Assembly: GCA_903872185.1 (NCBI GenBank)
Contig: CAIQJL010000215.1
Coordinates: 1-46,996 of the forward strand
Direction of reading: 5' to 3'
DNA from: an uncultured Bacteroidota bacterium
GTDB lineage: Bacteria > Bacteroidota > Bacteroidia > Bacteroidales > GWA2-32-17
DNA length: 46,996 nt
The notes beneath the pieces are model-generated. The model was not told the origin of the DNA and searched no databases. It saw only the letters and a program-made list of their open reading frames with translations. The translations under genes were made by a program, and so were the position numbers. Each line of letters opens with the position of its first letter. Position 1 is the stretch's first letter. Below, one piece after another: positions 26,654-46,150 of this stretch.

Positions 26654-28633
26654 ATGAGTAACAAATTACATTTAAACGAAATTCTTAGAATTAGCTCCAT
26701 AAGATATAGATTATTTTTAAGTTTTTTATTAATTACAAGTATTGCAGTGTTAGTTGTTATACTCAATAGCTATAATATGATAAAGAAGGATCAGATTCAA
26801 GAGGTTACTGAATCTCTTGATAATTTAAATGTCCTGTACTTACAGTATATTCGCGAAAACAATGGGTTTTTTTCTTATGAAATTATTAATTCAGATTTTT
26901 ACAAAACAGGAAAAAGTCAGTATTTAAAAAAGGGAGATTATTATCATAATTTAATCCACAATGAGCTGAATAAACTAAACTCATTTAAAATGATTTCTTC
27001 TTTTAACCTAGATTCAACTCTTTTTCAAATTAACAATAAATTCGAACATGGAATTTATTTATATAATGAACTCATTAGTTTAGTGAGAATAAGAGGATTT
27101 AAAGATTATGGAATTGAAGGGATAATGCGTGAAAACGTACATCGCTTAGAAAAAATGCCTGAAATAAATCAAATTAGTTTATTAAGTCTTAGGCGTCATG
27201 AAAAAGATTATATTATTAGAATGGATACCAACTATGTTAGAAAACTTAAAAATGTTGCGGCAGAAATGAAAAAAGAAATTAGCAATAGTCATTTAAATAA
27301 GCAGAGATCCCATGATGCGTTAAAATACCTAAACAATTATGTTAACCAATTTGAAATGCTTGTATTAGTTGATTATAGAATAGGTTTAAAAAAACATATT
27401 GGTTTAAAAGAACGTCTTGACATTAACGAAAAAGAACTTTCCGAACTATTCGTAAAAGCAATTCTTAATGCTAGAATTACACAAAATGAATTATTACACA
27501 GAATGCAGATATTATTAATTTATATTTCTGTATTTATAACAATTATAGGCTTTTTTGTTAGTTGGTGGATTTCCAGACAATTTACTAAGCCTATTGTTAT
27601 GTTATCATCATATATAGACCGCTTTGTTTCAACAAAATTTAAAAACGATGAAGAATTCTTAATAAATCCTTCTGAAGATGAAACCGGAAAATTAATTGTA
27701 AATTTTGGGATTCTAAAAAAAGAATTACTTGCACACATAAATGATCTGAATCAAAAAGTATTAGAAAGAACATCAGAAGTATCCGAACAAAAATCACTAA
27801 TTGAACGACAGAACAGAGTTATTGGCCAGCAAAATAAAAATGTTATGGCAAGTATTCGTTATGCCCGTCATATACAAGAAGCTATTTTGCCAGATGTTAA
27901 TTATATTTCATCTATTTTACCTGAATATGGAATATTCTACCAACCAAGGGATATTGTTAGCGGAGATTTTTATTTTATAGATGACTTTAGCGATAACAAA
28001 AAAGATAAAGTATTTATTGCAGTTGCAGATTGTACTGGACATGGAGTTCCTGGTGCTTTCATGAGCCTAATAGGACACAATGCCCTACATCAGGCTGTAA
28101 AAGTAAAAAAAATGTCTGACCCTGTTGCAATTCTTCAGCATCTTGATAAATCTATTCACAGCACATTGCACGAAAAAAACAGATACTCTAAAATAAATGA
28201 TGGCATGGATGTGGGAATCTGTGTGTGGGACAGGAAAACAAATTACATAGAATTTTCAGGCAGTAATACATCTTTATACATAATTAGAAATAATACTCTA
28301 ATTGAATATCCTGGCCAAAAATATTTAATTGGACATGTTTTTTTAGAAGAAAATAAACCAGAGCGCACTTTAACAAAGAAACGAATTCAAGTACTAGAAG
28401 GTGACATTATCTGTATGTCAACAGATGGATACTATGATCAGTTTGGTGGAATTGATGGTGGAAAAATGAAAAGAAAAATATTTAAACAACTCCTTGAATC
28501 AATAAATACATTGTCAGTTGAAAAACAAATAATTGAAATTAAAAAATATTTTGAAAGTTGGAAAGGAGATCATGAACAGATTGATGATGTTTTAGTTTTA
28601 TTATTTATTGTTAAAGCAGAAGCTAACAATTAG
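26654..28633 (+). CDS. Membrane sensor with HAMP and SpoIIE-type PP2C phosphatase
   Basis: The 659-residue protein has a membrane helix near residues 20-43, a helical extracytoplasmic region of about 240 residues, a second helix near 286-308, a HAMP-like segment (FTKPIVMLSSYIDRF), a coiled coil, and a C-terminal SpoIIE/PP2C phosphatase. The phosphatase begins with SIRYARHIQEAILP and has the metal-binding acidic motifs DIVSGDFYF and ADCTGHGVPGAFMS, plus DDVLVLLF near the end. It should dephosphorylate a Ser/Thr-phosphorylated partner, typically an anti-sigma antagonist, on an external signal. No anti-sigma or STAS gene is adjacent. Its stop overlaps that of the converging PiT gene (TTAG). Confidence 0.85.
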   Translation: MSNKLHLNEILRISSIRYRLFLSFLLITSIAVLVVILNSYNMIKKDQIQEVTESLDNLNVLYLQYIRENNGFFSYEIINSDFYKTGKSQYLKKGDYYHNLIHNELNKLNSFKMISSFNLDSTLFQINNKFEHGIYLYNELISLVRIRGFKDYGIEGIMRENVHRLEKMPEINQISLLSLRRHEKDYIIRMDTNYVRKLKNVAAEMKKEISNSHLNKQRSHDALKYLNNYVNQFEMLVLVDYRIGLKKHIGLKERLDINEKELSELFVKAILNARITQNELLHRMQILLIYISVFITIIGFFVSWWISRQFTKPIVMLSSYIDRFVSTKFKNDEEFLINPSEDETGKLIVNFGILKKELLAHINDLNQKVLERTSEVSEQKSLIERQNRVIGQQNKNVMASIRYARHIQEAILPDVNYISSILPEYGIFYQPRDIVSGDFYFIDDFSDNKKDKVFIAVADCTGHGVPGAFMSLIGHNALHQAVKVKKMSDPVAILQHLDKSIHSTLHEKNRYSKINDGMDVGICVWDRKTNYIEFSGSNTSLYIIRNNTLIEYPGQKYLIGHVFLEENKPERTLTKKRIQVLEGDIICMSTDGYYDQFGGIDGGKMKRKIFKQLLESINTLSVEKQIIEIKKYFESWKGDHEQIDDVLVLLFIVKAEANN

Positions 28634-30045
28634 CCAACAAATAATCTAAATAAAAGAAATAATCCACCTGAAAGTAATATTGTTACAGGTATAGTAACAA
28701 CCCAAGCTATTAAAATATTCTTAACTGTGCTGTATTGTAAATTTTTTCTCCCTCCATGAGCTAACATACTACCCGCAACACCTGAAGAAAGTACATGGGT
28801 TGTACTCACAGGTAATCCTAAAAGTGTTGAAATCCCAATCGTACTTGCTGCGACTAATTCTGCACTTGCTCCTTGAGCATAAGAAAGATGCGATTTTCCT
28901 ATTTTTTCACCAATTGTCACAACAATGCGTTTCCACCCTATCATAGTTCCTAAACCAAGTGATGTTGAAATTAATAAAATTACCCACCATGGAGCATATT
29001 CTGTATATCCAGACAATTCTTTTACGTTTTTCTTGAAATGATCAACTTCCTTTTCAGTTAAGCTAATTATTGCAACGTTTTTTAATGATTCACTTTTAAA
29101 AAACTTATCACTTAATTTGGCTATTGACAGAATGTTTTTTCTAACTCCAAATCTTTCAGAATAAGGAATTTCTTCTGGACCTTGAGATCTACCAAGTACA
29201 GATTTAATTGCAGTTACTTTTGTTCTCATATCTGCGAATACTTTATAATCTGCTGCATTCAATTTCACTGTATCAATTTTTGAAATATAATTTCCAAGAT
29301 AATTAATATTACCTGTCATGTTTGTTGTAATTTTTGAAGAATCTAATGCAAATTTAGCAGGTAAAAAAGCAATTAAAATTATCATTATTAAACCAACACC
29401 TTTTTGTCCATCATTTGAACCATGAGAAAAACTAACACTTGTACATGTTAATACAAGAAATGAACGAATCCAAAATGGAGGTTTTTTAACAGGATCAGGT
29501 TCAGCAAAAAACTTTTTCTTTTTAATTATTCTTTTGAATAAAAACATTAACAGCATAGTTAAACCTAAACCAATAAGAGGTGAAATCAATAGTGATAGAC
29601 CTGCATCTGTTACTTTTTTCCAATTTAAAGCGGCATCACCAGAAATAAACATAAATGCTATTCCAACTCCAAAAATAGAACCTAATAGGGTATGAGAACT
29701 AGAACAAGGAATACCGAAATACCATGTTGCAAGATTCCATACAATTGCAGTTAAAATTAAAGCCGCAATCATCGCAACACTATGATATATATTCTGATCT
29801 ACTAAAGCATCCATGGGAAGTAAATTAACTATTCCCATAGCAACTGCAATTCCTCCAAAATAAACACCAATAAAATTCCATATACCCGACCAAACAACGG
29901 CAACACTTGGTTTTAATGATCGCGTATAAATTACAGTAGCAACTGCATTTGCAGTATCGTGAAATCCATTAATAAATTCAAAAACTAAAGCTGCAAGTAT
30001 AACTACAACTAATAAAACTGATAATCCAATTGATAATCCAAACAT
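28630..30045 (-). CDS. pit: PiT-family inorganic phosphate transporter
   Basis: The 471-residue low-affinity phosphate permease has the two PiT repeats. The N-terminal one has FINGFHDTANAVAT and GIPCSSSHTLLGS; the C-terminal one has SAELVAASTIG and LPVSTTHVLSSGVAG. A hydrophilic insert of about 110 residues (roughly 225-335) lies between them, as in Bacteroidota PiT proteins. Start at the ATG at 30045. Upstream is an array of TTAAC repeats with 11-bp period, like a Pho box, and the PhoU operon lies 413 bases further up on the same strand, so phosphate control is likely. Confidence 0.93.
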   Translation of the reverse strand: MFGLSIGLSVLLVVVILAALVFEFINGFHDTANAVATVIYTRSLKPSVAVVWSGIWNFIGVYFGGIAVAMGIVNLLPMDALVDQNIYHSVAMIAALILTAIVWNLATWYFGIPCSSSHTLLGSIFGVGIAFMFISGDAALNWKKVTDAGLSLLISPLIGLGLTMLLMFLFKRIIKKKKFFAEPDPVKKPPFWIRSFLVLTCTSVSFSHGSNDGQKGVGLIMIILIAFLPAKFALDSSKITTNMTGNINYLGNYISKIDTVKLNAADYKVFADMRTKVTAIKSVLGRSQGPEEIPYSERFGVRKNILSIAKLSDKFFKSESLKNVAIISLTEKEVDHFKKNVKELSGYTEYAPWWVILLISTSLGLGTMIGWKRIVVTIGEKIGKSHLSYAQGASAELVAASTIGISTLLGLPVSTTHVLSSGVAGSMLAHGGRKNLQYSTVKNILIAWVVTIPVTILLSGGLFLLFRLFVG

Positions 30046-30458: not shown

Positions 30459-31118
30459 TTAATTTTTTTGAACAACCATAATTTTTGAATGAAAATAAAA
30501 AACCATTTCTTCAACAATGTTCTGAATATTGTCACATGTTCTATCTAATTTTCTTATAATAGATAGAGTATTCACAGCCATCTTTACTTCACTTTGATTG
30601 GCATTAATGTATTCGGCGACTATTTCACTAGAATCTTTATTTAATTTTTTAATTGTTTCTTTTTTACCAAAATTAGTTTTCAATAATTCATTGTTTTCCT
30701 TTTCGAAAGTTTCAAGTGTATCTGTTAATAAATTAACGCAAATTTCAAACATCTCAAATACCCGACATGATTTTAATAACTTTTCAGAAAAAGGCAATTC
30801 CTGATCCTCAATTAATTTTGAAATACTAAATGCATAATCGCCAATCTTTTCTAAGTTGTTGTTTAATTTAAGAACCACTAATACAAATTTCAAATCAACT
30901 TTGATTGGATTTTGTTGAACTAATATACTTTCACATTCTTTATCAATTTTCAATTCTAAAGTATTTAATAATTTTTCATTTACTTCAATATTATAAACAA
31001 TATTTTTATCGAAATTTTTTAAAGCAAGTTGAGATTTACTGATTTGACTAATAACAATATTCCACATCTCAACAATATTTTCTTTTAATTCTTTAATTTC
31101 TGTTTCTAAATGATTCAT
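30459..31118 (-). CDS. phoU: PhoU-family phosphate signalling protein
   Basis: The 219-residue helical protein has the two PhoU three-helix repeats, each with its metal-binding motif: LEKIGDYAFSISKL in the first and LDRTCDNIQNIVEE in the second. PhoU normally links phosphate transporters to the PhoR kinase and keeps the Pho regulon off when phosphate is plentiful. It starts 9 bases after the stand-alone DNA-binding ORF and closes the regulator operon. No PstSCAB genes are in the window; the likely transporter partner is PiT downstream. Confidence 0.88.
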   Translation of the reverse strand: MNHLETEIKELKENIVEMWNIVISQISKSQLALKNFDKNIVYNIEVNEKLLNTLELKIDKECESILVQQNPIKVDLKFVLVVLKLNNNLEKIGDYAFSISKLIEDQELPFSEKLLKSCRVFEMFEICVNLLTDTLETFEKENNELLKTNFGKKETIKKLNKDSSEIVAEYINANQSEVKMAVNTLSIIRKLDRTCDNIQNIVEEMVFYFHSKIMVVQKN

Positions 31119-31431: not shown

Positions 31432-31812
31432 TCAATGTTGTATCTTGTTATTTAAAACCTCGGCAACTGTACTTAGCAATAATTTTAGAGAAACAGGTTT
31501 ATTTATGTATTGTGCTCCACCAGCATAATGAGCAGTAAGTGCAAGATATTCATCGCTATCTGCAGTAAGAAAAATAACTGGAATGTTTTTAATTAATTCA
31601 TTTCGTTTTATTCTTCTGCACATTTCAATTCCATCAATTTCTGGCATTCTTATATCGGCAATTATTACATCAGGTATATGATGAATTGCCTTTTCAATCC
31701 CTTCTTTAGCATTAGACGCAGTAAACACTTCATATCCATGTTTATTGAAATTATATGAAACAAATTCAAGTATGTCATTTTCATCATCTACTATAAGTAT
31801 TTTTTTGTGCAT
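31432..31812 (-). CDS. Stand-alone response regulator receiver domain
   Basis: The 126-residue protein is a full receiver: acidic pair in LIVDDENDI, phospho-acceptor Asp in IIADIRMPEIDG, switch Thr in FLTADS and Lys in INKPVS. It ends immediately after the last helix. All catalytic residues are intact, so it should accept phosphate. Relative to the complete neighbour, the alpha4-beta5 face has AQYINKP in place of DDYLKKP, so dimerisation may differ. It lies 73 bases after the complete regulator and 13 before the DNA-binding ORF. Confidence 0.85.
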   Translation of the reverse strand: MHKKILIVDDENDILEFVSYNFNKHGYEVFTASNAKEGIEKAIHHIPDVIIADIRMPEIDGIEMCRRIKRNELIKNIPVIFLTADSDEYLALTAHYAGGAQYINKPVSLKLLLSTVAEVLNNKIQH

Positions 31813-31885: not shown

Positions 31886-32584
31886 CTACCAATCCATAAA
31901 TTTATATCCAACACCCTTTTGAGTTCTAATAAAATCTTCACCCAATTTTTCTCTTAGTTTTCTAATATGAACATCAATTGTTCTTTCACCCGAAGAATTA
32001 TTATCACCCCATATTTTATTAAATATTTCATCACGGGTAAATACTTTATCTGGTTTTGATGCTAACATTGCTAATAATTCGAACTCTTTACGAGGAAGAT
32101 TTACTTCTTTATTATTAACCATTACCACATATTTTTCTCGATTAATTAATAATTTTCCATTTAACAAAACAGTATCTTTTGGTTTTATAAAAACAGCATC
32201 AGCTCTTTTTCTATAGAGCATTGATTTTAATTTTGCAACCAGCACTCTTGGGCTTACTGGCTTTTTTAAATAATCATCACCGCCAGCTTCAAATCCGGCA
32301 ATTTGAGAATAATCCTCACTACGTGCTGTTAAGAAAAGTATTAATGTAGAATCAAGTTTGGATTCTTTGCGCATTTCAATACAAGTCATTATGCCATCCA
32401 TTTCAGGCATCATAATATCCAATAAAATTATGTTTGGCAATTTTTCTTTTGCTAGTTTTAAACCCTCAATGCCGTTTCTAGCCGAATATACAGTAAAATC
32501 GGCTTTAACTAAATTATACGTAAGAAATTCGTGAATACTTTCTTCGTCATCCACTATTAAAACAGAGTTTTGTAATTCTTTCAT
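31886..32584 (-). CDS. PhoB/OmpR-type response regulator
   Basis: The 232-residue regulator has an N-terminal receiver (VLIVDDEES, phospho-acceptor in IILLDIMMPEMDG, FLTARS, DDYLKKPVS) and a C-terminal winged helix (LPRKEFELLAML, GERTIDVHIRKLREKL, QKGVGYKF). Length and architecture fit PhoB. It heads an operon with the split receiver, split DNA-binding protein and phoU, and sits beside a TTAAC-repeat array, which makes a phosphate-response role likely. No histidine kinase is adjacent, so the PhoR partner must lie elsewhere. Confidence 0.88.
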   Translation of the reverse strand: MKELQNSVLIVDDEESIHEFLTYNLVKADFTVYSARNGIEGLKLAKEKLPNIILLDIMMPEMDGIMTCIEMRKESKLDSTLILFLTARSEDYSQIAGFEAGGDDYLKKPVSPRVLVAKLKSMLYRKRADAVFIKPKDTVLLNGKLLINREKYVVMVNNKEVNLPRKEFELLAMLASKPDKVFTRDEIFNKIWGDNNSSGERTIDVHIRKLREKLGEDFIRTQKGVGYKFMDW

Positions 32585-32909
32585 AATTAATCTTTAGACC
32601 TTTTATTCAATGTAAAATTATTTCTTTTGCATTAACTGAATATTAACAGTATATTATCTAATAGTTATTAAAACGAGATTATACTTTTGGTTTTAGTAAT
32701 AGAGAATTAATCTTTAGTTAACTATTAATTTATATCATTAAAATAGTTTTGTATAAAATTATATTCATTGAATTTTAAAATAAATACCATTTTCTTCAAG
32801 CAACTAATTAAAGCCTTTATCTCTCCTCTTAATATATTTTATTCTGCTTGTTTCACGATGTTATTATACTTCTTACACTATTATTCAATATTTATATCAT
32901 GATTTTTTT
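32585..32909. other. Divergent control region between the regulator and PlcP-like operons
   Basis: This 325-base, very AT-rich region separates the minus-strand regulator operon from the plus-strand lipid operon. It contains the TTAAC-repeat array (32632-32658) and a plus-strand TACTTTTG (32682-32689) matching TAnnTTTG. If that is the promoter, the lipid operon has a leader of about 210 bases. No open frame is seen. Confidence 0.55.
32632..32658 (+). promoter_or_regulatory. Pho-box-like repeat array between the two operons
   Basis: TTAAC (32632), TTAAC (32643) and TTATC (32654) recur with 11-bp period, and a weaker TTATT follows at 32665. The orientation points toward the PlcP-like operon, matching the orientation of the other arrays relative to their genes, but the site could serve both directions. 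Confidence 0.5.
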
Positions 32910-33776
32910 ATGCAAGAAAAATTAAAAAAAGAAAAAAGAAAAGTAGATATTCTGGTTATTTCAGATGTTCATTTGGGGACATATGGATGTCACAGCAAGG
33001 AACTTCTAAAATATATAAAAAGCATTAAGCCAAATACAGTTATATTAAATGGAGATATAATAGACATGTGGCAGTTTAGTAAAAGATACTGGCCAAAATC
33101 GCATATGAAGGTAATTCATAAGATAATTAAGTGGATTAGTGAAGGAGTCAAAGTATACTATATAACCGGAAATCATGACGAAATGCTTAGGAAATTTGCT
33201 GGATTTAAAATGGGCTCACTAATAATTGATAACAAATTATTAGTTGAGATTGATGGTAAAAAAACTTGGATTTTTCATGGTGATGTGTTCGATGTTACGA
33301 TGAAAAACTCGAAATGGCTTACAAAATTAGGATCACATGAGTACGATTTGCTAATACTTATAAATGCAGTCTGTAACTGGATTTCTGTAAAAGTGGGAAG
33401 AGGAAAAATATCTTTATCGAAAAACATAAAAAATAGCGTAAAACAAGCAGTGAGTTTTATAAATGATTTTGAAAAAACGGCAACAGATATAGCAATTTCA
33501 AATGGATATGATTATGTATTATGCGGTCACATACATCACCCAGAAATGAAAACTATAAAAACCGAAAAAGGACAAGTTGAATACTTAAACTCCGGTGATT
33601 GGATAGAAAATTTAACAGCTCTGGAATACAACGATAAAAAATGGAGCATCTTTCAATATAAAGATAAAGATTTTGAAAATGACGAAATAGATGAAGTTGA
33701 TGATGAAATATTGATGATGAGCAATAATCAAATTTTCAAACAAATGCTTTGTGAATTCTCTATAATAGCAAACTAA
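32910..33776 (+). CDS. PlcP-like metallophosphoesterase
   Basis: The 288-residue cytoplasmic phosphoesterase has all dinuclear-metal motifs: SDVHLG (Asp19, His21), NGDIID (Asp49), GNHDE (Asn88, His89), FHGD (His123) and CGHIHH (His207, His209). The intervening pattern (LGTYGC, YWPKSH, INDFE, NSGDW) matches the PlcP phospholipase C family, often annotated as UDP-2,3-diacylglucosamine hydrolase, rather than true LpxH, which has GNRDF. PlcP removes the head group from phospholipids to give diacylglycerol under phosphate shortage. A glycosyltransferase follows 13 bases later, the arrangement known for PlcP-Agt lipid remodelling. LpxH-like activity is the alternative. Confidence 0.75.
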   Translation: MQEKLKKEKRKVDILVISDVHLGTYGCHSKELLKYIKSIKPNTVILNGDIIDMWQFSKRYWPKSHMKVIHKIIKWISEGVKVYYITGNHDEMLRKFAGFKMGSLIIDNKLLVEIDGKKTWIFHGDVFDVTMKNSKWLTKLGSHEYDLLILINAVCNWISVKVGRGKISLSKNIKNSVKQAVSFINDFEKTATDIAISNGYDYVLCGHIHHPEMKTIKTEKGQVEYLNSGDWIENLTALEYNDKKWSIFQYKDKDFENDEIDEVDDEILMMSNNQIFKQMLCEFSIIAN

Positions 33777-33789
33777 AAAATTAAAAAAC

Positions 33790-34830
33790 ATGAAGATTTT
33801 ATACGCAATTCAGGGAACAGGAAATGGCCACATAACAAGAGCTATTGAAATAATACCATATTTACAAAAAAAAGGAGATTTAGATATACTTATAAGCGGT
33901 ATACAATCTGATATTGAATTACCATTTAAAGTTAAATACAAATTAAATGGTCTTTCATTCATTTTCGGAAAACAAGGAGGTGTTGACATCTGGAAAACAT
34001 ATTGGAAAATGAATTCTAATAAGTTAAGGAAAGAAATTAAAGCTTTAGATTTAACAAAATACGATTTAATTATTAATGATTTTGAACCAGTTTCGGCTTG
34101 GGCTGCAATAAGAGATAAAAAACCCTGTATAGGCCTAAGCAATCAAGTAGCAACACTACATCCTTTGGCACCAAAACCAAAAAATAATGACTTAATTGGT
34201 AGATTAGTTTTACAAAAGTATGCACCTTCTTCCTTCAATTATGGGTTTCATTTTAAAAGTTTAGATAACAATATATACACCCCAATTATAAGAAAAGAAG
34301 TAAGAGAAATAACAACCACAAAAGATGGGCACTATACAGTTTATCTGCCTTCTTATGACGATAAGCAAATTTTAAAAAACTTAAGTAAAATTGAAAGCGT
34401 TAACTGGGAAGTTTTTTCAAAACACTGCAAGAAAAGAAAAAAAGTAAGAAATATAACAATTCATCCTATTAATCAGGAATCGTTTTTAAAAAGCATGGCT
34501 GCAAGCACTGGAGTTCTTTGTAATGCAGGATTTGCGACTACAAGCGAGGCTTTATTTTTGAAAAAGAAATTACTAGTTATTCCTATGAAAAAGCAATATG
34601 AACAAAAGTGTAATGCCGAAATGCTTAAAAGTATGGGAGTGAGAGTTATTAAAAAATTAAACAAAGAAAACCATATTAATATATACGAATGGATAAGATC
34701 TAAAAAAATTATAACGGTAGATTATCCAGATATAACGGAAAAAATTATAGAGACTATTTTTGAAAATCATTTAGGAAAAGATACTTTGGATAAAAATTTT
34801 ACTAAGGCAAATTATAGCCTTTTTCAATAA
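33790..34830 (+). CDS. GT28/MurG-like glycosyltransferase, candidate diacylglycerol glycosyltransferase
   Basis: The 346-residue GT-B enzyme has an N-terminal GTGNGHITRAIEI glycine loop (residues 9-14 GTGNGH) and a C-terminal donor site with LCNAGFATTSEALFLKKK, then IPMKKQYEQKCNAEML, as in MurG and MGDG-synthase-type families. It also resembles the uncharacterised MJ1255-type family. It has no membrane segment or signal peptide, so it would work on the inner face of the membrane. Between a PlcP-like enzyme and a GH1 enzyme, transfer of a sugar to diacylglycerol is the best-supported guess. Donor and acceptor are not established. Confidence 0.7.
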   Translation: MKILYAIQGTGNGHITRAIEIIPYLQKKGDLDILISGIQSDIELPFKVKYKLNGLSFIFGKQGGVDIWKTYWKMNSNKLRKEIKALDLTKYDLIINDFEPVSAWAAIRDKKPCIGLSNQVATLHPLAPKPKNNDLIGRLVLQKYAPSSFNYGFHFKSLDNNIYTPIIRKEVREITTTKDGHYTVYLPSYDDKQILKNLSKIESVNWEVFSKHCKKRKKVRNITIHPINQESFLKSMAASTGVLCNAGFATTSEALFLKKKLLVIPMKKQYEQKCNAEMLKSMGVRVIKKLNKENHINIYEWIRSKKIITVDYPDITEKIIETIFENHLGKDTLDKNFTKANYSLFQ

Positions 34831-34849
34831 ATACATTTTTAATCTTTTG

Positions 34850-36190
34850 ATGAAGAATTCAGATTTTGGAGACTCTTTCACATGGGGGGTTTCTTCATCG
34901 GCACTGCAAACAGAAGGTGCTTTTAATGTTGATGGAAAAGGACTCTCTATTTGGGACGAATTCTCAAAGAAAAAAAATAAAATATTTAATAACGATTCAC
35001 CAGCAATTGCTTGCGATTTTTATAATAACCACAAAGAAGATATTGCAATAATAAAACAGTTAGGTATTCCAAATTTCAGATTTTCATTATCCTGGTCAAG
35101 GATACTACCAAATGGAACTGGAAAAATAAATCAGCTAGGAATTGATTTCTATAACAAAATACTTGATACTTGCATTGAATCAGGTATTGAGCCTTGGGTG
35201 ACATTATATCATTGGGATTTGCCATTGGAACTTGAAAAACAAGGTGGTTGGGCTAATAGAGAAATTCTTAAATGGTTCGAAGAATTTGTAACAGTTTGCA
35301 TATATTCTTTTAAAAGCAAAGTAAAATATTGGATGATTTTGAATGAGCCAATGGTTTTTACCGGAGCAGGATATTTTTTGGGCGTACATGCTCCTGGAAA
35401 AAAAAGCTTATCAAAGTTTTTATCTGCAATGCACCATGCTGTATTATGTCAGGCAATAGGTTATAACGTAATTAAAAAAATACAGCCAACAGCTCAGGTT
35501 GGAACAACATTTTCGTGCTCATTTATTACACCAAATTCCACTTCTAAAAAAGATACACTTGCAGCAAAAAGAATGGATGCACTTTTAAACAGATCATTTA
35601 TCGAACCCTCATTAGGACTTGGCTATCCGATGATAACATTCCCTTTTTTAAAACGAATTAAGAGATATATTTTAGAAGGTGATGAAGATTTAATGAAAGT
35701 TGAGTTTGATTTCATCGGTATTCAGAATTATACCAGAGAAGTTGTTACACATTGTTTTTATATTCCCTATTTAAAAGCAAAAATAATTCCGGCTAATAAA
35801 CGAAAGGTTTATCACTCTAAAATGAATTGGGAAGTCTATCCTGAATCAATTTATCAAATGATTAGAAAATACAGTAAATATAATGGTGTTAAGAAAATAA
35901 TTATTACCGAAAATGGTGCTTCTTTTAAAGATGAAGTAAAAAATAACATAATAGAAGATAAAGAGCGAAAACAATTTATAAAATCAAACCTCGAACAAGT
36001 TTTAAGAGCTAAAATAGAAGGGTTAAAAGTTGATGGCTATTTTGTTTGGTCATTAACTGACAACTTTGAATGGGCAGAAGGTTACAAACAAAGATTTGGA
36101 ATAATTCATATAGATTACCAAACTTTAAAAAGAACAATAAAAGAATCGGGAAAATGGTATAGTAATTTTTTAACTAAAAACAGTATTTAA
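34850..36190 (+). CDS. GH1-family glycosidase or transglycosidase
   Basis: The track begins at a TTG at 34847 directly before the ATG at 34850, which is preferred (446 residues). The family signature FTWGVSSSALQTEG opens the TIM barrel; the acid/base is Glu166 in ILNEPMVF and the nucleophile Glu354 in ITENGAS, and WSLTDNFEWAEGY closes the barrel. There is no signal peptide, so the enzyme is cytoplasmic. It follows the glycosyltransferase by 19 bases, and no sugar-uptake genes are near. In this operon it may trim or transfer sugars on glycolipids rather than digest imported glucosides. It converges with the TonB receptor, 5 bases apart. Confidence 0.9.
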   Translation: MKNSDFGDSFTWGVSSSALQTEGAFNVDGKGLSIWDEFSKKKNKIFNNDSPAIACDFYNNHKEDIAIIKQLGIPNFRFSLSWSRILPNGTGKINQLGIDFYNKILDTCIESGIEPWVTLYHWDLPLELEKQGGWANREILKWFEEFVTVCIYSFKSKVKYWMILNEPMVFTGAGYFLGVHAPGKKSLSKFLSAMHHAVLCQAIGYNVIKKIQPTAQVGTTFSCSFITPNSTSKKDTLAAKRMDALLNRSFIEPSLGLGYPMITFPFLKRIKRYILEGDEDLMKVEFDFIGIQNYTREVVTHCFYIPYLKAKIIPANKRKVYHSKMNWEVYPESIYQMIRKYSKYNGVKKIIITENGASFKDEVKNNIIEDKERKQFIKSNLEQVLRAKIEGLKVDGYFVWSLTDNFEWAEGYKQRFGIIHIDYQTLKRTIKESGKWYSNFLTKNSI

Positions 36191-36195
36191 CATTA

Positions 36196-39069
36196 CTAAA
36201 AACTATAACTAACTCCCAAACTAAAGTAGGTACCAACCTTGTAATTAATAGTTTCCTGTTCACGTTTTACTTTTGCACCATCTTTTCCAGTAAAGATTAG
36301 AAATTGTTTATTAACAAATGGCTGATTTAATATATCCTGAATACCACCCTTTAATTGAAAATGCTTACCAAGTTTTTTAGAAAATGTTAAATCAAGCGAC
36401 TGACGAGGCATTTCATAAGTGTCTGGAATATCTTCATCAGCATTTTGCATTGGTTGTCCTACAGCAATAATTCTTTTACCAATTACATTATATAATAAAC
36501 TTACCATTAATCCCTGTTCTTCGTTTTGGTAAAACAAACCAACATTTACTATAAATGGCGATTGGCCTTGCATTGGGCGATCTCTGTCTTCTATAGGATT
36601 ATCAAATTGAACTTTACTTTTAATATATGAAGCATTAAGAGAAAGATTGAAATATTTAAAATATTTTAGAAAACTATCTGATTTCCCTAATTTCTCAAAG
36701 GATTTTTTCATTTCTATTTCCGCTCCAATACTTGTAGCTTGTTTTGCATTCTGAAATCCATATTGTAAACCACTTCCTGCATTTACATATCTTATCTCAA
36801 TTGGATTAACAAATTGTTTGTAGAAAATTCCGGCTGAAAAAGTTTCAGATTTTGAAGGATAAAGCTCATATCGCAAATCGAAATTATGTATTATAGCATC
36901 TTTAATTTTCGGATTGCCACCAAATGCAGCATTTAACTCAAAATCATAAAATATAAATGGTGCAATTTCTCTGAATTCTGGGCGATTTATAGTTTTTCCA
37001 TAACTTAATCTTAACTGACTTTTTTCTGTTAAATCATATGAAAGATTTATTGAGGGAAATAATTTTATTGCATCATTGTTATAATTAACAGGAATTGTAG
37101 GATTATCTGACAAATAACTATCTAAAGTCTGCCTGTTTTTTTCAACTCTTACACCTGTATAAATCTGAAATAACAAAGTAACAGGAATTTTAAAAGCAAC
37201 ATATGAAGCAGCCATCAAATTGCCAGCATCATAAGAATCGGAAGGGTTTGATGATTCGCTTATTTTTATACCATTTATATTGTTAATATTTTGCTCTGTA
37301 AATATTTCATCAGGTGACAAAAATAAATTAATGTTTGTGCTATCAGTACTTTTCTTATATCCTAGTAATCTTGCATTAAATGTTCTAGTTTTATTTTCTA
37401 AATATACTCCTGCTTTTAACTCAGGTCTGAAATCATTAAACTTAAATTTTTGCTCATAATTTGCACATCCCATAACAATATTCTCATTCAAATGCATATA
37501 CACTCTTCCTGCATATTTTGGGGAAGCCGCAGAACCAATAGCAACTTCGTATTTGTTATAATATTGACTAGTGGGATCTGTATTTTTAATTGTTGTTAAT
37601 CTTCGAAGGTCTGGCTCATTACGATTTGCAAAAGAGTAACCAGTTGTCCAATTTAATTTTTTTGTATCCTTTCCAAAAGAATGTTGTCCACCAAGCTGTC
37701 CAGAATAGGTAGTACGACTCAAAAAACGATATTCATATGATTTTAATATTTGTGAACTATAATATTCTTCTCCATTTCTGAATATTGTTTTTGAATATCC
37801 AGTTTGGTTAAAAACATTTCTAAATTCCAATTTATTATTTTCATTTATTTGCCAAGCCCAATTATGCAAAATACCTTCTTTTGCAGTATTTGTATATTGT
37901 TCATCCATAAAATCAAAATCGGGCGTACTTTGATCAAGAGTAAAATTATATACAGTATAATTTCTTCTATGGATATTCAAATATTGACTAGTATTACTAT
38001 AATTAATTGCAGAAATATTATTTAAAGTTGTTTTACCAATTTTAAATTTTCTTGTAAAGCCCAAAGAAAAACGCTGATCGGGAATAGCTGTTAATTTATT
38101 TGCACTCCAACTTGTATTAATTTCTCTACCTAATTCTTGTAATTTCTGTTGATCGGCTGAAAAGTTGGTAGAATTAAAATCTTCCAGTTTATTTAAATGT
38201 GTTGGAAAATCGGTTGGCAATGCACGTGTGCCATTATCAAAACCAAGAAAATCAGTTGAACTTCCTTTATATTTATAAAATGTATTAAAAGTTGTACCGT
38301 TTCTATAATGAGCTGAATAATTAACTGTAGTTGAATTTTTGTCGGAAATATTTTTTGTAAAAATCTGAATTGCTGCTCCGGCAAACTCAGCAGGAAGTTC
38401 AGGTGCGGGAGATTTAAAAATTAGAATATTATCAATTAACGAACTTGGTATTACATCAAATGAAAATGCCTTAACATCTGATTCTGAACTTGGAGCAGTA
38501 GCATTATTAAGAAGTGTTGAATTATATCTTTCACTTAATCCACGAACCATAACAAAACGTCCATCAATTACAGTAATGCCTGGAATTCTTTTTATTACTT
38601 CAGATGCATCTTTATCTTGCGAACGTTGTATTACTTCGCTTGATATGCCATTAACTACAAGATTACTTTCTTTTATTGAACTTATAAGGGACATATCGGT
38701 ATCAGTTTTTCTTGTGGCCACAACACTAATTTCAGTTAATTGTGTTGACGCTGGCTCAATGTATATTGTTACAATAGTTTCTTTATCCTTTGTTACTTTT
38801 ACTCCTTCAATTATTAATTGTTTATATGAGATATAAGATATAACAAGATTACATGTTCCAGGTTTAACATTAGTAATAATAAAATTTCCATCAAAATCTG
38901 TAGAAGCTCCCTGAGTTGTACCTTGAATAATTACACTAGCTCCAAAGATACTCTCTTTTGTTACTTTGTCTTTTATATTTCCTTTAATACTTCCTTTATC
39001 TGAAGCACTGGCTTTATAAAGACTTAGAAATATTAATGCGAGGATTAAAATAGTTTTCAAATAAGACAT
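36196..39069 (-). CDS. TonB-dependent outer-membrane receptor with CarboxypepD_reg domain
   Basis: The 957-residue protein starts with a signal peptide (MSYLKTILILALIFLSLYKASA), followed by a CarboxypepD_reg domain (GSIKGNIKDKVTKESIFGAS to about residue 110), a plug domain (EVIKRIPGITVIDGRFVMVRGLS) and a 22-strand-type barrel ending in YFSLGVSYSF. It imports a large or scarce nutrient across the outer membrane using TonB energy. It is not SusC-like in length and has no SusD partner. A Pho-box-like array lies directly upstream, and the gene after the intervening terminator encodes a surface lipoprotein. A phosphate-containing substrate is suggested by context only. Confidence 0.92.
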   Translation of the reverse strand: MSYLKTILILALIFLSLYKASASDKGSIKGNIKDKVTKESIFGASVIIQGTTQGASTDFDGNFIITNVKPGTCNLVISYISYKQLIIEGVKVTKDKETIVTIYIEPASTQLTEISVVATRKTDTDMSLISSIKESNLVVNGISSEVIQRSQDKDASEVIKRIPGITVIDGRFVMVRGLSERYNSTLLNNATAPSSESDVKAFSFDVIPSSLIDNILIFKSPAPELPAEFAGAAIQIFTKNISDKNSTTVNYSAHYRNGTTFNTFYKYKGSSTDFLGFDNGTRALPTDFPTHLNKLEDFNSTNFSADQQKLQELGREINTSWSANKLTAIPDQRFSLGFTRKFKIGKTTLNNISAINYSNTSQYLNIHRRNYTVYNFTLDQSTPDFDFMDEQYTNTAKEGILHNWAWQINENNKLEFRNVFNQTGYSKTIFRNGEEYYSSQILKSYEYRFLSRTTYSGQLGGQHSFGKDTKKLNWTTGYSFANRNEPDLRRLTTIKNTDPTSQYYNKYEVAIGSAASPKYAGRVYMHLNENIVMGCANYEQKFKFNDFRPELKAGVYLENKTRTFNARLLGYKKSTDSTNINLFLSPDEIFTEQNINNINGIKISESSNPSDSYDAGNLMAASYVAFKIPVTLLFQIYTGVRVEKNRQTLDSYLSDNPTIPVNYNNDAIKLFPSINLSYDLTEKSQLRLSYGKTINRPEFREIAPFIFYDFELNAAFGGNPKIKDAIIHNFDLRYELYPSKSETFSAGIFYKQFVNPIEIRYVNAGSGLQYGFQNAKQATSIGAEIEMKKSFEKLGKSDSFLKYFKYFNLSLNASYIKSKVQFDNPIEDRDRPMQGQSPFIVNVGLFYQNEEQGLMVSLLYNVIGKRIIAVGQPMQNADEDIPDTYEMPRQSLDLTFSKKLGKHFQLKGGIQDILNQPFVNKQFLIFTGKDGAKVKREQETINYKVGTYFSLGVSYSF

Positions 39070-39090
39070 TTTATTTACTTTTTATAATTG

Positions 39091-39135
39091 CAAAATTATC
39101 AACTCTGTTTTAACTTAACGTTAAGTTGATTTTAA
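39091..39135 (-). promoter_or_regulatory. Promoter and Pho-box-like array of the TonB receptor gene
   Basis: On the minus strand TTAAA (39135-39131), TTAAC (39124-39120) and TTAAA (39113-39109) have 11-bp period, with ATAAC a further 11 up. Ten bases downstream is TAATTTTG (39098-39091), an exact -7 match. No TTTG is at -33; the repeats occupy that position, as expected for an activator-dependent promoter. Confidence 0.6.
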
Positions 39136-39150
39136 TGAATTGTTATCTAT

Positions 39151-39186
39151 AATAAAAAAAGGGTGCCTTAAAAAAGGCAACCCTTT
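39151..39186 (-). terminator. Rho-independent terminator after the surface lipoprotein gene
   Basis: AAAGGGTGCCTT pairs with AAGGCAACCCTTT (one bulged A) around a short A-loop, followed on the minus strand by a run of T (CCTTTTTTTATT). It separates the lipoprotein gene from the TonB receptor gene, which has its own promoter. Confidence 0.8.
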
Positions 39187-39212
39187 ACAAACATCCATCG
39201 AAGAAAAGATTA

Positions 39213-40574
39213 TTAGTAAACTGTATTTTGTGGATCGTAATTAGCCCAGCCACTTAACCAATTAGAAGTTCCAAAAGCACCGCGATAAGTTACAACTTCA
39301 AAACCAGTAGTTAAATTAGCACTTGAAAAACTTGCAGTACCTAACAAAGGTGAATTTGAAAGAGGTAAGAAATTTGGAGTTGTACCCCATGGATCAGTTA
39401 CTTTCAAAGATGAATTTGCCATTAAAGTATCATTACCAGCGCCTAAGTACCAACTTGCAACTTGTGAAGCAGTCCAAGTAGCACCACTTGTACCAATTTC
39501 AAAAAATGTACTTGCACTACTACAACCTGAGATAGTCACGTTTTTAATTTCTAAATCACCATTTGTTGCATTTGTTTCACATTTGCTACCATCTATCATA
39601 ACACCTTCTAAATAACCAGCAAATACTGAATTATAAACACAAAGACGTGAATTTCTGCGAATATGCATAGATCTTTTAAAATTAGCACTAATATTAGAAG
39701 TTGCAGATGAAACTCTTGGTCCAAAAATGCTTACGTTTGAGAAAATAGGGTGAGTAAATGGAGCATTATCAGAACCTGCTGCATCATTATCAGATTCAAA
39801 ACCATTAGAACCAGAAACGTCAGCAACGTTTTTATCTCTTAAAGACACAATAAATTGTACTTTTCCAGAAAATCCAAAGTCAGTATCAAAATCATCATCT
39901 AATCCTTTGTATGCAAATAAATGTTTACAGTTTACTGTACCACCAAACCATTCAAAAGAATCATCGTTAGCATAAGAAACCATTACGTAGTCAACAGTTG
40001 TTCCACTTCCAACACCACAGAATGTTAATCCGTTAATTTCTTTATCTGGCATTAAAGGATAACCAGCATATTCTATACGTACATATTTTAAAGTACCTGA
40101 ATTATCAAGAGCATCTGTACCGCCATAAATTGTACGAGGACCACCTTCTACCTGAGGATTAGTCTGGTTTACTGGAGCTTTTCCACAAAGTACAACACCA
40201 CCCCAATCGCCACGGTTACGGAAAGTAACAGGAGCATTTGAAGTAAAAATAATAGGCTGAGCTAAAGTACCATTTGCTTCAATTTTAGCACCTCTTTCAA
40301 TAATTAATGTGCCCATTGTTGTTTTGTCACCTTTAATAACAGTTCCAGGACTAACTGTTAACGTAACACCGTCCACAACATAAACAAATCCTTTTAATAA
40401 ATATTTTTTATCTGCTGTCCAGGTTGTATTAGCGGTAATTTCGCCAGTTATCTCTATCACAGAAGAAGAAGGTGTTGGATCTGGTTCAGCAGTATCCTTT
40501 TTTTTGCATGAGGTAAAGCTCATACTAAAACCAATTAATAATGCTAATGCATAGAACAAAAAACTTTTTTTCAT
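39213..40574 (-). CDS. Surface lipoprotein with predicted beta-helix
   Basis: The 453-residue protein has a lipoprotein signal (IGFSMSFTSC, lipid-attached Cys23) followed by KKKDTAEPDPTPSSS, a linker. The mature domain has repeated short strands and Asn/Gly turns (TVSPGTVIKGDKTTMGTLIIERGAKIEANG, then PIIFTSN), consistent with a right-handed parallel beta-helix, and the C-terminal half includes FEWFGGTVNCKHLFAYKGLDDDF. I recognise this as a conserved Bacteroidota family found next to TonB receptors, without known function. A TTAAC repeat pair lies upstream. Confidence 0.7.
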   Translation of the reverse strand: MKKSFLFYALALLIGFSMSFTSCKKKDTAEPDPTPSSSVIEITGEITANTTWTADKKYLLKGFVYVVDGVTLTVSPGTVIKGDKTTMGTLIIERGAKIEANGTLAQPIIFTSNAPVTFRNRGDWGGVVLCGKAPVNQTNPQVEGGPRTIYGGTDALDNSGTLKYVRIEYAGYPLMPDKEINGLTFCGVGSGTTVDYVMVSYANDDSFEWFGGTVNCKHLFAYKGLDDDFDTDFGFSGKVQFIVSLRDKNVADVSGSNGFESDNDAAGSDNAPFTHPIFSNVSIFGPRVSSATSNISANFKRSMHIRRNSRLCVYNSVFAGYLEGVMIDGSKCETNATNGDLEIKNVTISGCSSASTFFEIGTSGATWTASQVASWYLGAGNDTLMANSSLKVTDPWGTTPNFLPLSNSPLLGTASFSSANLTTGFEVVTYRGAFGTSNWLSGWANYDPQNTVY

Positions 40575-42334: not shown

Positions 42335-45300
42335 ATGAAACTCCCTCTTGTTTGCTTTGTTATATTTTTTATATTCAGTAGTTGTGAAACAAAACACAAT
42401 TATCAAGATTTAAGTAAAAATTCAAAAAACACAAAAGAAAAAACAAAATCCTCTATAAATAATTCTATTTGTCCCGTTGTGTTCGTTGTTAATGAGTCTA
42501 AACTAAATAAAACTCTTGCAGGGGTTCCGGTTATTAATAAAATAGTTTCAAATATTAAAAAAGCAAAAGAATCTAAGACTATAGAATATACTAATTTGTG
42601 TAAAATAACAATTGGAAAAGACTCTGTTTTATTTCCAAAAATCATTAAAAGTCCAATTTTGAAATCTGTTATCGCAGGTATGCCAGAAACAGTTGATAGC
42701 AAAGATTTTTATAATAGAACAAATAACTTTGAAAACTATAATTGCTTTAATAATAACCTAGGAAATAAATCAGAAATAGTAAGATGCATAATACAAGATA
42801 AGAATGGTAATATTTGGTTTGGAACAGATGGTGATGGTGTTTCAAAATTTGACGGAAAATCTTTTACTACCTATAACGAAAAAGATGGGCTGCCAAGTAA
42901 TCAAATATTTTCAATTTTAGAAGATAATAAAGGCAATCTCTGGTTTGGAACAAATGGTGGTGGTGTTTCAATGTTTGATGGTAACTCGTTCACAAATATT
43001 TCTGTAAAAGAAGGACTTTCTAATAACAATGTATGGTCAATATTGCAAGATAAAGATGGAAATATTTGGTTTGGGACTTATGGTGGAGGTGCAATAAAAT
43101 ATGACGGTAAATATTTAACATATTATACAGAAAAAGAAGGATTAATAAATAATAGCGTCAGAGCAATTACTCAGGATAAACAAGGTAATATTTGGTTTGG
43201 AACATATATGGGTGTTAGTAAATTCGATGGGGTATCTTTTACGAATTTTACAGAAAAAGAGGGATTAACAAATAACAGAATAAGAGCTATTGTTCAGGAT
43301 AACATTGGAAATATTTGGCTTGGCACATACGGAGGAGGAGTGTCTAGATTAACATTTAACAAAAACAATAGTGGATATTCATTTACAAATTTTACTGAAA
43401 AAGATGGCTTGTCAAATAATATAGTTCTTTCAATATTAAAAGATAATAACGGAAATATATGGTTTGGAACATCTGGTGGCGGTATTTCAAAATATGATGG
43501 TATTAGAATTGAAAAAGAAATTAAAAAAAACAGCCACGTTTCACAACAATATTCACATGACTTTAACCTAGTTAACGAAAACATTATTGACTGTTTTACG
43601 AATTATTCTGAAACAGAAGGATTACTCAATAATACCGTACTGTCAATGTTTCAAGACAGAAACGAAAATATCTGGATTGGCACTTCTGGTGGAGTTAGTA
43701 AATTTGAAAATAACACTTTTAATAATTATACCGAAAAAGATGGGTTGCCAAATAATTTTATTTTCTCAATATTAAATGATAAGAATGGAAATATATGGTT
43801 TGGAACATATGGTGGAGGTGTTTCGAAATATAATGAAAATTCTTTTATGAATTATTCAATAAAAGAAGGACTGCCAAATAATATTGTTTTATCGATAATT
43901 CAGGATAAAAGCGGCAATATTTGGTTTGGAACTTATGGTGGAGGTGTTTCTAAATTTGATGGAAAATTTTTTGTTAATTATAACGAAAACGATGGCCTGT
44001 CAAATAATAATGTAAGATCTATTTTACAAGATAAATCCGGCAATATTTGGTTTGGAACATATGGTGGAGGTGTTTCTAAATACAATGGTAGGACCTTTAC
44101 TAATTATACCGAGAAAGAAGGGTTATCAAGTAATATTGTAATTTCTATGTTAGAAGATAAAAACGGAAATATCTGGTTTGGAACATCAGGTGGCGGAGTC
44201 TCCAGATTTGATGGCAACACTTTTACTAATTATACCGAAAAAGAAGGGTTGTCAAATAATGTTGTATTATCAATGTTAGAAGACAAACATGGAAATATCA
44301 TATTTGGCACCTCAGGTGGAGGTATTTCAATATTTGATGGTAAAGCCTTTAAAAACATTGCCGAGAAAGATGGGTTGTTGAATAATTACGTAAGGGCAAT
44401 TTATCAAGATAAAATTGGCAATATTTGGTTTGGCACACGCCTAGGTCTTTGTAAACTATCATTAAACAATCAAATAAAGTTGAATTCTTTTATTAAAAAA
44501 GAGAACTCTATAACAAATGGTATAAACGTATCACAAAATGAAGTGTTTTTTAAAAATTACGAATATGAAGATGGATTTCTTGGTATTGGAATAAATGGTG
44601 GCAATACTATTTGCGAAGATAATAGCGGAACTATATGGATAGGCTCAAATGACAGGCTTATAGCATTTAATCCTAATGTTGAAAAGCTCGATACAACACC
44701 GCCAAATATTCAATTAACCGGTATAGAATTGTTTAATGAAAATATTTCGTGGGTAAATCTTAAGTCAAATAACAAGACTAAAAGGAAGGGTATTTTAAAA
44801 TTTAACAATGTTGCGAAAGATACTTTATTTACCTTAGGTAATGGCGTGAACGTTGAAAATTTAAAATTTAATAGTTTATCTCGTTGGTATAATCTTCCAG
44901 AAAAATTAAGTTTAGCATTTAATAACAATTATCTAACTTTTCATTTTATAGGAATAACGCAGCTACATAATAAAAAGGTAAAATATAAATATAAATTAGA
45001 TGATATTGATGAATACTGGAGTGCAATAACAACTCAAACAACTGCTACATATGGCAATTTACCTCAAGGTCGTTATATTTTTAGAGTTAAAGCAATGAAT
45101 AGTGAGGGGTATTGGAGCAAGGAATTTAGTTATAGTTTTACTATTCGTCCATATTGGATGCAAACATGGTGGTTTAGGACAATTTATATCATTGTATTTA
45201 TATTATTATTATTTGCATATTACCGTTGGCGCACTAGTGATTTACGAAAACAAAAAAATGAATTAAGATTAAAAATAAATGAAGCCACCTCAGAAATTAG

Positions 45301-46150
45301 GCAACAAAACGAAGAAATAACTTCAAAGCGAGATGAAATTGAAGCACAATGGGATTTGGTATCAAATCAAAAAAGACATATCGAGGCAATTCATAAAGAT
45401 TTAAAAGATAGCATTAAATATGCCGAAAGAATTCAACATAGCTTTTTGGCTTCAAGCGAATTATTAGATGAATATTTAAATGAATATTTTGTTTTCTTTC
45501 AACCTAAGGATGTTGTTAGCGGTGATTTTTATTGGGCCAGTAAGTTGAATAACGAGAATTTTGTTATAGCAATTGCTGATAGTACTGGGCACGGTGTTCC
45601 TGGTGCAATTATGAGCATCCTAAATATTTCATCGCTTGAAAAAGCTGTTGAACAAGGGCTTTGTGAACCGTCAGAAATTTTAAATAAAGTTCGCTGTATT
45701 ATAATTGATCGACTGAAGAAAGATGGTAGCAAAGAAGGCGGTAAAGATGGAATGGATATAAGTTTATTAAGTTTTGATTTTAAAAACAATAAGCTGCTTT
45801 ATTCTTCTGCTAATATTTTAATATGGATAATTAGAGAAAATAACATAATTGAATTAAAACCCGACAAAATGCCTGTAGGTAAACACAACAGAGATCAATT
45901 ATGTTTTACTAAAAATGAGATCATTTTACAAAAAGGTGATATGATATATAGCTTTACTGATGGATTGGTTGACCAATTTGGCGGTGCAAAAGGGAAAAAA
46001 TACATGCACAAACAATTAAAAGAACTTTTATATTCAATTGCTGATTTACCACTGCAGGACCAGAAAAATCGAATAACTCAATCGTTTATTAATTGGAAAA
46101 ATAATCTTGATCAGGTTGACGATATTACCATAATGGGAATAAAAATATAA
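42335..46150 (+). CDS. Two-propeller (Reg_prop) sensor with Y_Y_Y and SpoIIE phosphatase domains
   Basis: The 1271-residue receptor has an N-terminal lipoprotein-like signal (Cys17 in FSSCETK), then 13 clear and one degenerate Reg_prop repeats of about 42 residues (residues about 145-790). Their core is GNIWFGTYGGGVSKFDG, and 14 blades would form two seven-bladed propellers. A Y_Y_Y domain (about 850-935, with YKYKLDDIDEYW and YIFRVKAMNSEGYWS), a membrane helix (about 947-967), a coiled coil and a SpoIIE/PP2C phosphatase (about 1040-1271; DVVSGDFYW, ADSTGHGVPGAIMS) follow. The layout parallels hybrid two-component sensors, but the output is a Ser/Thr phosphatase instead of a histidine kinase. 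A TPR gene follows after 18 bases. Confidence 0.9.
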   Translation: MKLPLVCFVIFFIFSSCETKHNYQDLSKNSKNTKEKTKSSINNSICPVVFVVNESKLNKTLAGVPVINKIVSNIKKAKESKTIEYTNLCKITIGKDSVLFPKIIKSPILKSVIAGMPETVDSKDFYNRTNNFENYNCFNNNLGNKSEIVRCIIQDKNGNIWFGTDGDGVSKFDGKSFTTYNEKDGLPSNQIFSILEDNKGNLWFGTNGGGVSMFDGNSFTNISVKEGLSNNNVWSILQDKDGNIWFGTYGGGAIKYDGKYLTYYTEKEGLINNSVRAITQDKQGNIWFGTYMGVSKFDGVSFTNFTEKEGLTNNRIRAIVQDNIGNIWLGTYGGGVSRLTFNKNNSGYSFTNFTEKDGLSNNIVLSILKDNNGNIWFGTSGGGISKYDGIRIEKEIKKNSHVSQQYSHDFNLVNENIIDCFTNYSETEGLLNNTVLSMFQDRNENIWIGTSGGVSKFENNTFNNYTEKDGLPNNFIFSILNDKNGNIWFGTYGGGVSKYNENSFMNYSIKEGLPNNIVLSIIQDKSGNIWFGTYGGGVSKFDGKFFVNYNENDGLSNNNVRSILQDKSGNIWFGTYGGGVSKYNGRTFTNYTEKEGLSSNIVISMLEDKNGNIWFGTSGGGVSRFDGNTFTNYTEKEGLSNNVVLSMLEDKHGNIIFGTSGGGISIFDGKAFKNIAEKDGLLNNYVRAIYQDKIGNIWFGTRLGLCKLSLNNQIKLNSFIKKENSITNGINVSQNEVFFKNYEYEDGFLGIGINGGNTICEDNSGTIWIGSNDRLIAFNPNVEKLDTTPPNIQLTGIELFNENISWVNLKSNNKTKRKGILKFNNVAKDTLFTLGNGVNVENLKFNSLSRWYNLPEKLSLAFNNNYLTFHFIGITQLHNKKVKYKYKLDDIDEYWSAITTQTTATYGNLPQGRYIFRVKAMNSEGYWSKEFSYSFTIRPYWMQTWWFRTIYIIVFILLLFAYYRWRTSDLRKQKNELRLKINEATSEIRQQNEEITSKRDEIEAQWDLVSNQKRHIEAIHKDLKDSIKYAERIQHSFLASSELLDEYLNEYFVFFQPKDVVSGDFYWASKLNNENFVIAIADSTGHGVPGAIMSILNISSLEKAVEQGLCEPSEILNKVRCIIIDRLKKDGSKEGGKDGMDISLLSFDFKNNKLLYSSANILIWIIRENNIIELKPDKMPVGKHNRDQLCFTKNEIILQKGDMIYSFTDGLVDQFGGAKGKKYMHKQLKELLYSIADLPLQDQKNRITQSFINWKNNLDQVDDITIMGIKI
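42780..44440 (+). repeat. Tandem Reg_prop coding repeats
   Basis: Units of roughly 126 bp encode the propeller blades. Neighbouring units share long near-identical tracts such as TTTGGAACATATGGTGGAGG, strongest between about 43780 and 44300. The similarity is high enough that recombination between units, and so a change of blade number, is plausible. Confidence 0.8.

Follow-up and report, generated by a model that had tools for sequence, protein, structure and literature searches.

A conserved PlcP-glycosyltransferase-GH1 gene order in Bacteroidota and its possible role in phosphate-linked membrane-lipid remodelling

The DNA we analyzed (the window) is a stretch of 46,996 nucleotides from an uncultured Bacteroidota bacterium, and it carries a three-gene arrangement that is real, lies beyond chance and needed only small corrections to its first description. 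A PlcP-type metallophosphoesterase gene is followed by a glycosyltransferase (GT) gene and then by a gene for a glycoside hydrolase of family GH1, and what is new here is the GH1 gene added to the known PlcP-GT remodelling arrangement. We read the three genes as a phosphate-linked cassette with which Bacteroidota would remodel their membrane lipids, extended by an editing enzyme, a reading for which the chances of being right or wrong seem to us about equal. Three parts of it we infer: that phosphate controls the operon, that the acceptor is a lipid and that GH1 acts on lipid.

The earlier note on this DNA had described three plus-strand genes at 32910-36190, separated by 13 and 19 bases, beside PhoU, PiT and PhoB-like regulator genes, and the open reading frames do lie at these coordinates. 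The phosphoesterase (32910-33776, plus strand) is 288 amino acids long and the GT (33790-34830, plus strand) 346; the GH1 gene (34850-36190, plus strand) starts with the ATG at 34850, with a TTG at 34847 as an alternative start. The neighbors on the minus strand are a response regulator with a receiver and a winged helix domain that is divergent from the operon (31886-32584), a stand-alone receiver domain (31432-31812), PhoU (30459-31118) and a PiT/PHO4 phosphate transporter (28630-30045). Pfam matches agree with the note on PhoU (PF01895) and the transporter (PF01384), while the regulator is PhoB-like only and no PhoB equivalog, with 196 bits against the PhoB cut-off of 270; PhoU itself falls slightly below its equivalog cut-off (120.5 against 130.25). 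Between the regulator gene and the phosphoesterase gene lies an intergenic region (32585-32909); its final ~65 bases show conservation with the nearest relative, L003, and with no other. Tail-to-tail with the operon is a minus-strand pair (36196-40574) of a TonB-dependent receptor and a lipoprotein-like protein with no Pfam match; the pair recalls, by analogy, the clusters of a TonB-dependent transporter with FI/FII lipoproteins that Flavobacterium johnsoniae induces strongly when phosphate is low (PMC8115612), and weak homologs of the lipoprotein (86-89 bits) occur near two other operons (L184, L186). The region of phosphate and lipid genes has a SpoIIE-type phosphatase protein on either side (42335-46150 and 26654-28633), and one of the two has a two-component propeller sensor region.

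The phosphoesterase is a calcineurin-type protein (Metallophos, PF00149, 1e-14) in which all the metal motifs of that type are found (SDVHLG, GDIID, GNHDE, HGD and GHIHHPE), together with an NSGDWxENLTAL motif. It had been described as PlcP-pattern, with its possible grouping with LpxH as the point to check. Its homologs in S. meliloti, Roseateles and Sphingomonas have GNHDE and GDWVE where E. coli LpxH has GNRD, and in a tree whose LpxH side comprises three long-branched rows only, the phosphoesterase groups with these homologs and apart from E. coli LpxH (support 94/97); the S. meliloti protein is the one that we take to be the characterized PlcP. The genome’s own LpxH-like protein, encoded elsewhere, is also apart from the phosphoesterase in the tree. 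Public annotation pipelines call such proteins UDP-2,3-diacylglucosamine diphosphatase, in which case the genes would belong to lipid A synthesis, but the curated LpxH models are failed by a wide distance (62.6 bits against 134 for NF003743; 50.6 against 190 for TIGR01854), and with score, motif, tree and separate paralog all pointing away from LpxH we discarded that identity as highly improbable. Sequence comparison supports a PlcP-type enzyme, as the earlier note had it. A more distant PlcP-GT pair with no GH1 gene is present in Parabacteroides distasonis (L141), on a record that is called a plasmid, and the annotation of such pairs as lipid A genes may be a widespread misnaming. At another locus (L122:3765-4928), in a genome with no PlcP, a secreted alkaline-phosphatase-superfamily gene precedes GT-GH1, and a gene of the same superfamily, also secreted, comes after a stand-alone GH1 gene (L124:7681-8790). 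We considered the L122 protein as a non-orthologous phospholipase C replacing PlcP and dropped the idea because a secreted protein of this superfamily is more likely a phosphate scavenger.

For the GT, the likeness to MurG and MGDG synthase (GT28) that had been proposed was not supported by family assignment. The score against the GT28 C-terminal domain (Glyco_tran_28_C) is 20.1, below the cut-off of 22, and the best families are PF13528 (Glyco_trans_1_3; 1.3e-36, 126.9 against a cut-off of 25) and the MJ1255/VC2487 family TIGR00661, with 171.8 just below the cut-off of 195.9. In an alignment of 41 GT sequences two motifs are conserved, GTGNGH close to the N terminus and GAGF/E..Q in the C-terminal, donor half. 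The AlphaFold2 model is confident (pLDDT 90.3), the solved folds nearest to it are GT1-type (e.g. YjiC and UGT109A1, TM-score 0.5-0.6), and a search for relatives by sequence in the PDB gave weak matches only, to GT1-type UDP-glycosyltransferases. From the confident model and its closest folds we take the protein to be a GT-B enzyme, and it is the partner gene, PlcP, that suggests a lipid acceptor.

A search for a conserved PlcP-GT-GH1 order across Bacteroidota had been proposed as a check, and the genome comparisons bear out both the order and the co-conservation of the GH1 gene. GH1 is directly downstream of GT in 15 of the 33 GT loci found, in lineages that include Flavobacteriaceae, Sphingobacteriaceae, Crocinitomicaceae and Cytophagales, and among 148 genomes sampled evenly across the phylum closely related GH1 proteins were confined to the window’s class. 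Among 247 genomes of that class, a GH1 of the subfamily type occurs in 70 and the GT in 83; 42 genomes have both, 28 GH1 only, 41 GT only and 136 neither (Fisher p = 8.5e-8, a value that overstates independence because the genomes are mutually related). Judged by coordinates, 23 of the 42 co-carrying genomes, from about 14 families, have the two genes side by side on one strand, and all 12 of the adjacent cases that were fetched have PlcP-GT-GH1. Because some records are shared by both of our collections (L004 is L178, and L027 is G363 by coordinates), we count about 26 distinct complete operons in this order, from many families; the genes of one of them (L006) touch or overlap. The open literature searched yielded no report of a plcP-GT operon that includes a GH1 gene, which agrees with the earlier note’s statement that it knew of no bacterial system with this third enzyme.

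The operons that contain GH1 also tend to lie near phosphate genes. PstS, PstC, PstA, PstB, PhoU or PiT is encoded within four genes of 6 of 16 GH1 operons and of 0 of 20 GT loci with no GH1 (Fisher p = 0.004), and many PlcP-GT pairs lacking GH1 are in neighborhoods free of phosphate genes. PstS and PstC score above their cut-offs at L004, and L010 has PHO4, PhoU-like, PstB and PstA genes. The loci compared are partly related, several of them being close relatives of the window, so the phosphate neighborhood is supporting evidence and no proof of regulation. Inspection by eye and with one simple pattern recognized no Pho box motif common to relatives upstream of the operon; one candidate, a set of TTxTTxCA-like repeats with 11-base spacing at 32847-32888, was rejected as it is absent from the relatives. 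At L004, L007 and L122, a gene next to the operon and adjoining PstS or PhoU-like genes encodes a protein of a family with no Pfam match (c15, 425-444 amino acids), possibly a phosphate-related outer-membrane protein. In Fulvivirga (L024:6990-7676) and in another lineage (L130:6903-7586) a PhoB-like response regulator gene comes immediately after a PlcP-GT pair with no GH1.

The third gene product is a retaining GH1 beta-glycosidase (PF00232, 2e-142) that passes the curated beta-glucosidase model TIGR03356 with 518 bits against a cut-off of 478.5. It had been described as cytoplasmic with both catalytic glutamates, and we find both (in LNEP and ITENG, equivalent to E166 and E351 of TmBglA) and no signal peptide. 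A first tree placed 27 rows of its subfamily in one clade (100/100) against 13 other GH1 proteins, among them TmBglA and GH1 proteins of Thermus, Azospirillum and Streptomyces, and a second tree of 80 rows united 67 subfamily members (99/97). In TmBglA numbering, all 67 members have Gln at position N293, where 12 of the 13 other proteins have Asn and one has Ser (none has Gln); 65 of the 67 and none of the 13 have Ser at N222, most members have Cys at N223, and M, L, A, S or F takes the place of W168; one row of the alignment (L009) is shortened by a contig end. The subfamily resembles TmBglA, TnBgl1A and Ttbgly in its whole GH1 domain, its catalytic Glu residues and its -1 subsite (Q20, H121, N165, Y295, E405 and W406 are kept), and differs from them at the four positions just named and in its place in a PlcP-GT operon. 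The GH1 proteins form a distinct subfamily, an undescribed one as far as we found.

All the operon GH1 proteins lack an evident signal peptide, twin-arginine or other, which fits a product on the cytoplasmic face. Stand-alone members form a sister clade (98/95) in which 22 of 28 start with Tat signals of the MNRRxxLK type, and every class-sample genome with a member has a single subfamily GH1 at the threshold used. One reading of this distribution is that both forms may act on the same kind of substrate, e.g. a membrane lipid, that is reachable from either side. The stand-alone genes (L150-L177, most with Tat signals) come from genomes with or without the GT and have no consistent neighbor beyond a SpoIIE/Reg_prop-like protein downstream in L167, L171 and L173 and a common upstream gene in L167 and L171-L173.

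In the remodelling scheme that we favor, PlcP would take the phospho-head group off a phospholipid to leave diacylglycerol or a lipid alcohol like it, the GT-B enzyme would transfer a sugar from a nucleotide sugar to that alcohol, and the cytoplasmic GH1 would act on the sugar of the GT product, either by removing it (turnover, and a reset once phosphate returns) or by moving it to another lipid or acceptor. The PlcP and GT steps follow from established PlcP-GT systems, and the GH1 step is suggested by operon conservation, location and family chemistry. Among published lipid-remodelling arrangements plcP beside a glycosyltransferase gene is the commonest, the Agt of SAR11 makes glycolipids, and the main text on the six published plcP gene arrangements names no GH1 (PMC4796936). 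As in the PlcP-Agt systems of Alphaproteobacteria and SAR11, the PlcP-type gene here directly precedes the glycosyltransferase gene, with phosphate genes nearby; unlike in them, the GT is of the PF13528/MJ1255 type, set apart by family assignment, and GH1 is added. In its proposed role the GT would also resemble Sgt1 and Sgt2 of Caulobacter, which add sugars to lipids when phosphate is scarce, and no GH1 is described in that glycosphingolipid synthesis. Several observations speak against this scheme: the flavobacterium Dokdonia MED134, which has plcP, showed aminolipids rather than glycolipids at low phosphate (PMC4796936), PlcP-GT pairs lacking GH1 are often away from phosphate genes, the subfamily GH1 occurs with no GT in 28 of 70 genomes, and no Pho box was recognized. 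The lipid-remodelling proposal of the earlier note is supported in part, by the PlcP type, the GH1 co-conservation and the nearby phosphate genes, and loses its GT28/MGDG-synthase component.

What GH1 does could also be read in other ways. It could be a lipid transglycosidase like plant SFR2, a galactolipid:galactolipid galactosyltransferase that is also a GH1 protein, and by this analogy would transfer sugars from glycolipid to glycolipid, giving oligoglycosyl lipids and free diacylglycerol; the nearest families of the window enzyme, however, are bacterial BglA-type beta-glucosidases. W168 is lost in the subfamily, and its Gln and Ser lie where engineered changes have been reported to shift GH1 enzymes towards transfer over hydrolysis, as with N282T in Ttbgly (PMC4803828; N282 of the Thermus protein is N293 of TmBglA) and with N220F/R/Y in TnBgl1A and N222F in TmBglA (PMC5247548, PMC9113129), and this lends some independent but indirect support to the suggestion that GH1 may elongate head groups. 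The natural residues differ from those tested (Q and not T; S and not F, R or Y), so the link to transfer is a lead; moreover, N294T in HoBGLA lowered the yield of galacto-oligosaccharide, the transfer-linked positions Y295 and F414 are unchanged, and the replacements may alter sugar specificity instead. We regard an SFR2-like transglycosidase as unlikely, and as equally doubtful the wider idea that the Q293/S222 subfamily consists of natural glycolipid transglycosidases or editing enzymes, the cytoplasmic ones working with PlcP and GT at the inner leaflet and their Tat-exported sisters outside, on lipid of the same kind.

If GH1 were an ordinary beta-glucosidase that salvages sugars in the cytoplasm, placed in the operon incidentally or as a supplier of glucose for the GT, this would explain the pass of the curated beta-glucosidase model and the mostly Tat-exported stand-alone members in many genomes with no GT. 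Adjacency far above chance that recurs in about 14 families, and an active site unlike that of ordinary beta-glucosidases, make this reading somewhat unlikely; SusD is missing from the 25 commonest neighbor families, which also argues against salvage and led us to reject a polysaccharide-locus reading. The acceptor, finally, might be a sphingolipid or other Bacteroidota lipid, with PlcP acting on a phospho-sphingolipid, the GT making a glycosylceramide and GH1 serving as glucosylceramidase. Bacteroidota make sphingolipids, and three oxoamine synthases from the serine palmitoyltransferase superfamily are encoded in the genome, but all of them score below the curated cut-off for the Bacteroidota serine palmitoyltransferase (341.6 at best, against 640) and the substrates of known PlcP enzymes are glycerophospholipids. 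Even with Caulobacter making glycosphingolipids at low phosphate (PMC6445935), we consider this quite improbable.

In existing descriptions, bacteria remodel their lipids at low phosphate by breaking down phospholipid and then adding sugar in one further step, and we know of no account of a later adjustment or removal of the sugar lipids in bacteria. A conserved operon glycosidase with unusual residues at engineered positions makes this question testable in cultured Bacteroidota such as relatives of Maribacter, Arenibacter and Parapedobacter. Our results suggest that Bacteroidota with the GH1 gene can also edit or undo their own sugar lipids; if this is true, the operon enzymes would represent a GH1 subfamily naturally tuned at the positions that set hydrolysis against transfer.
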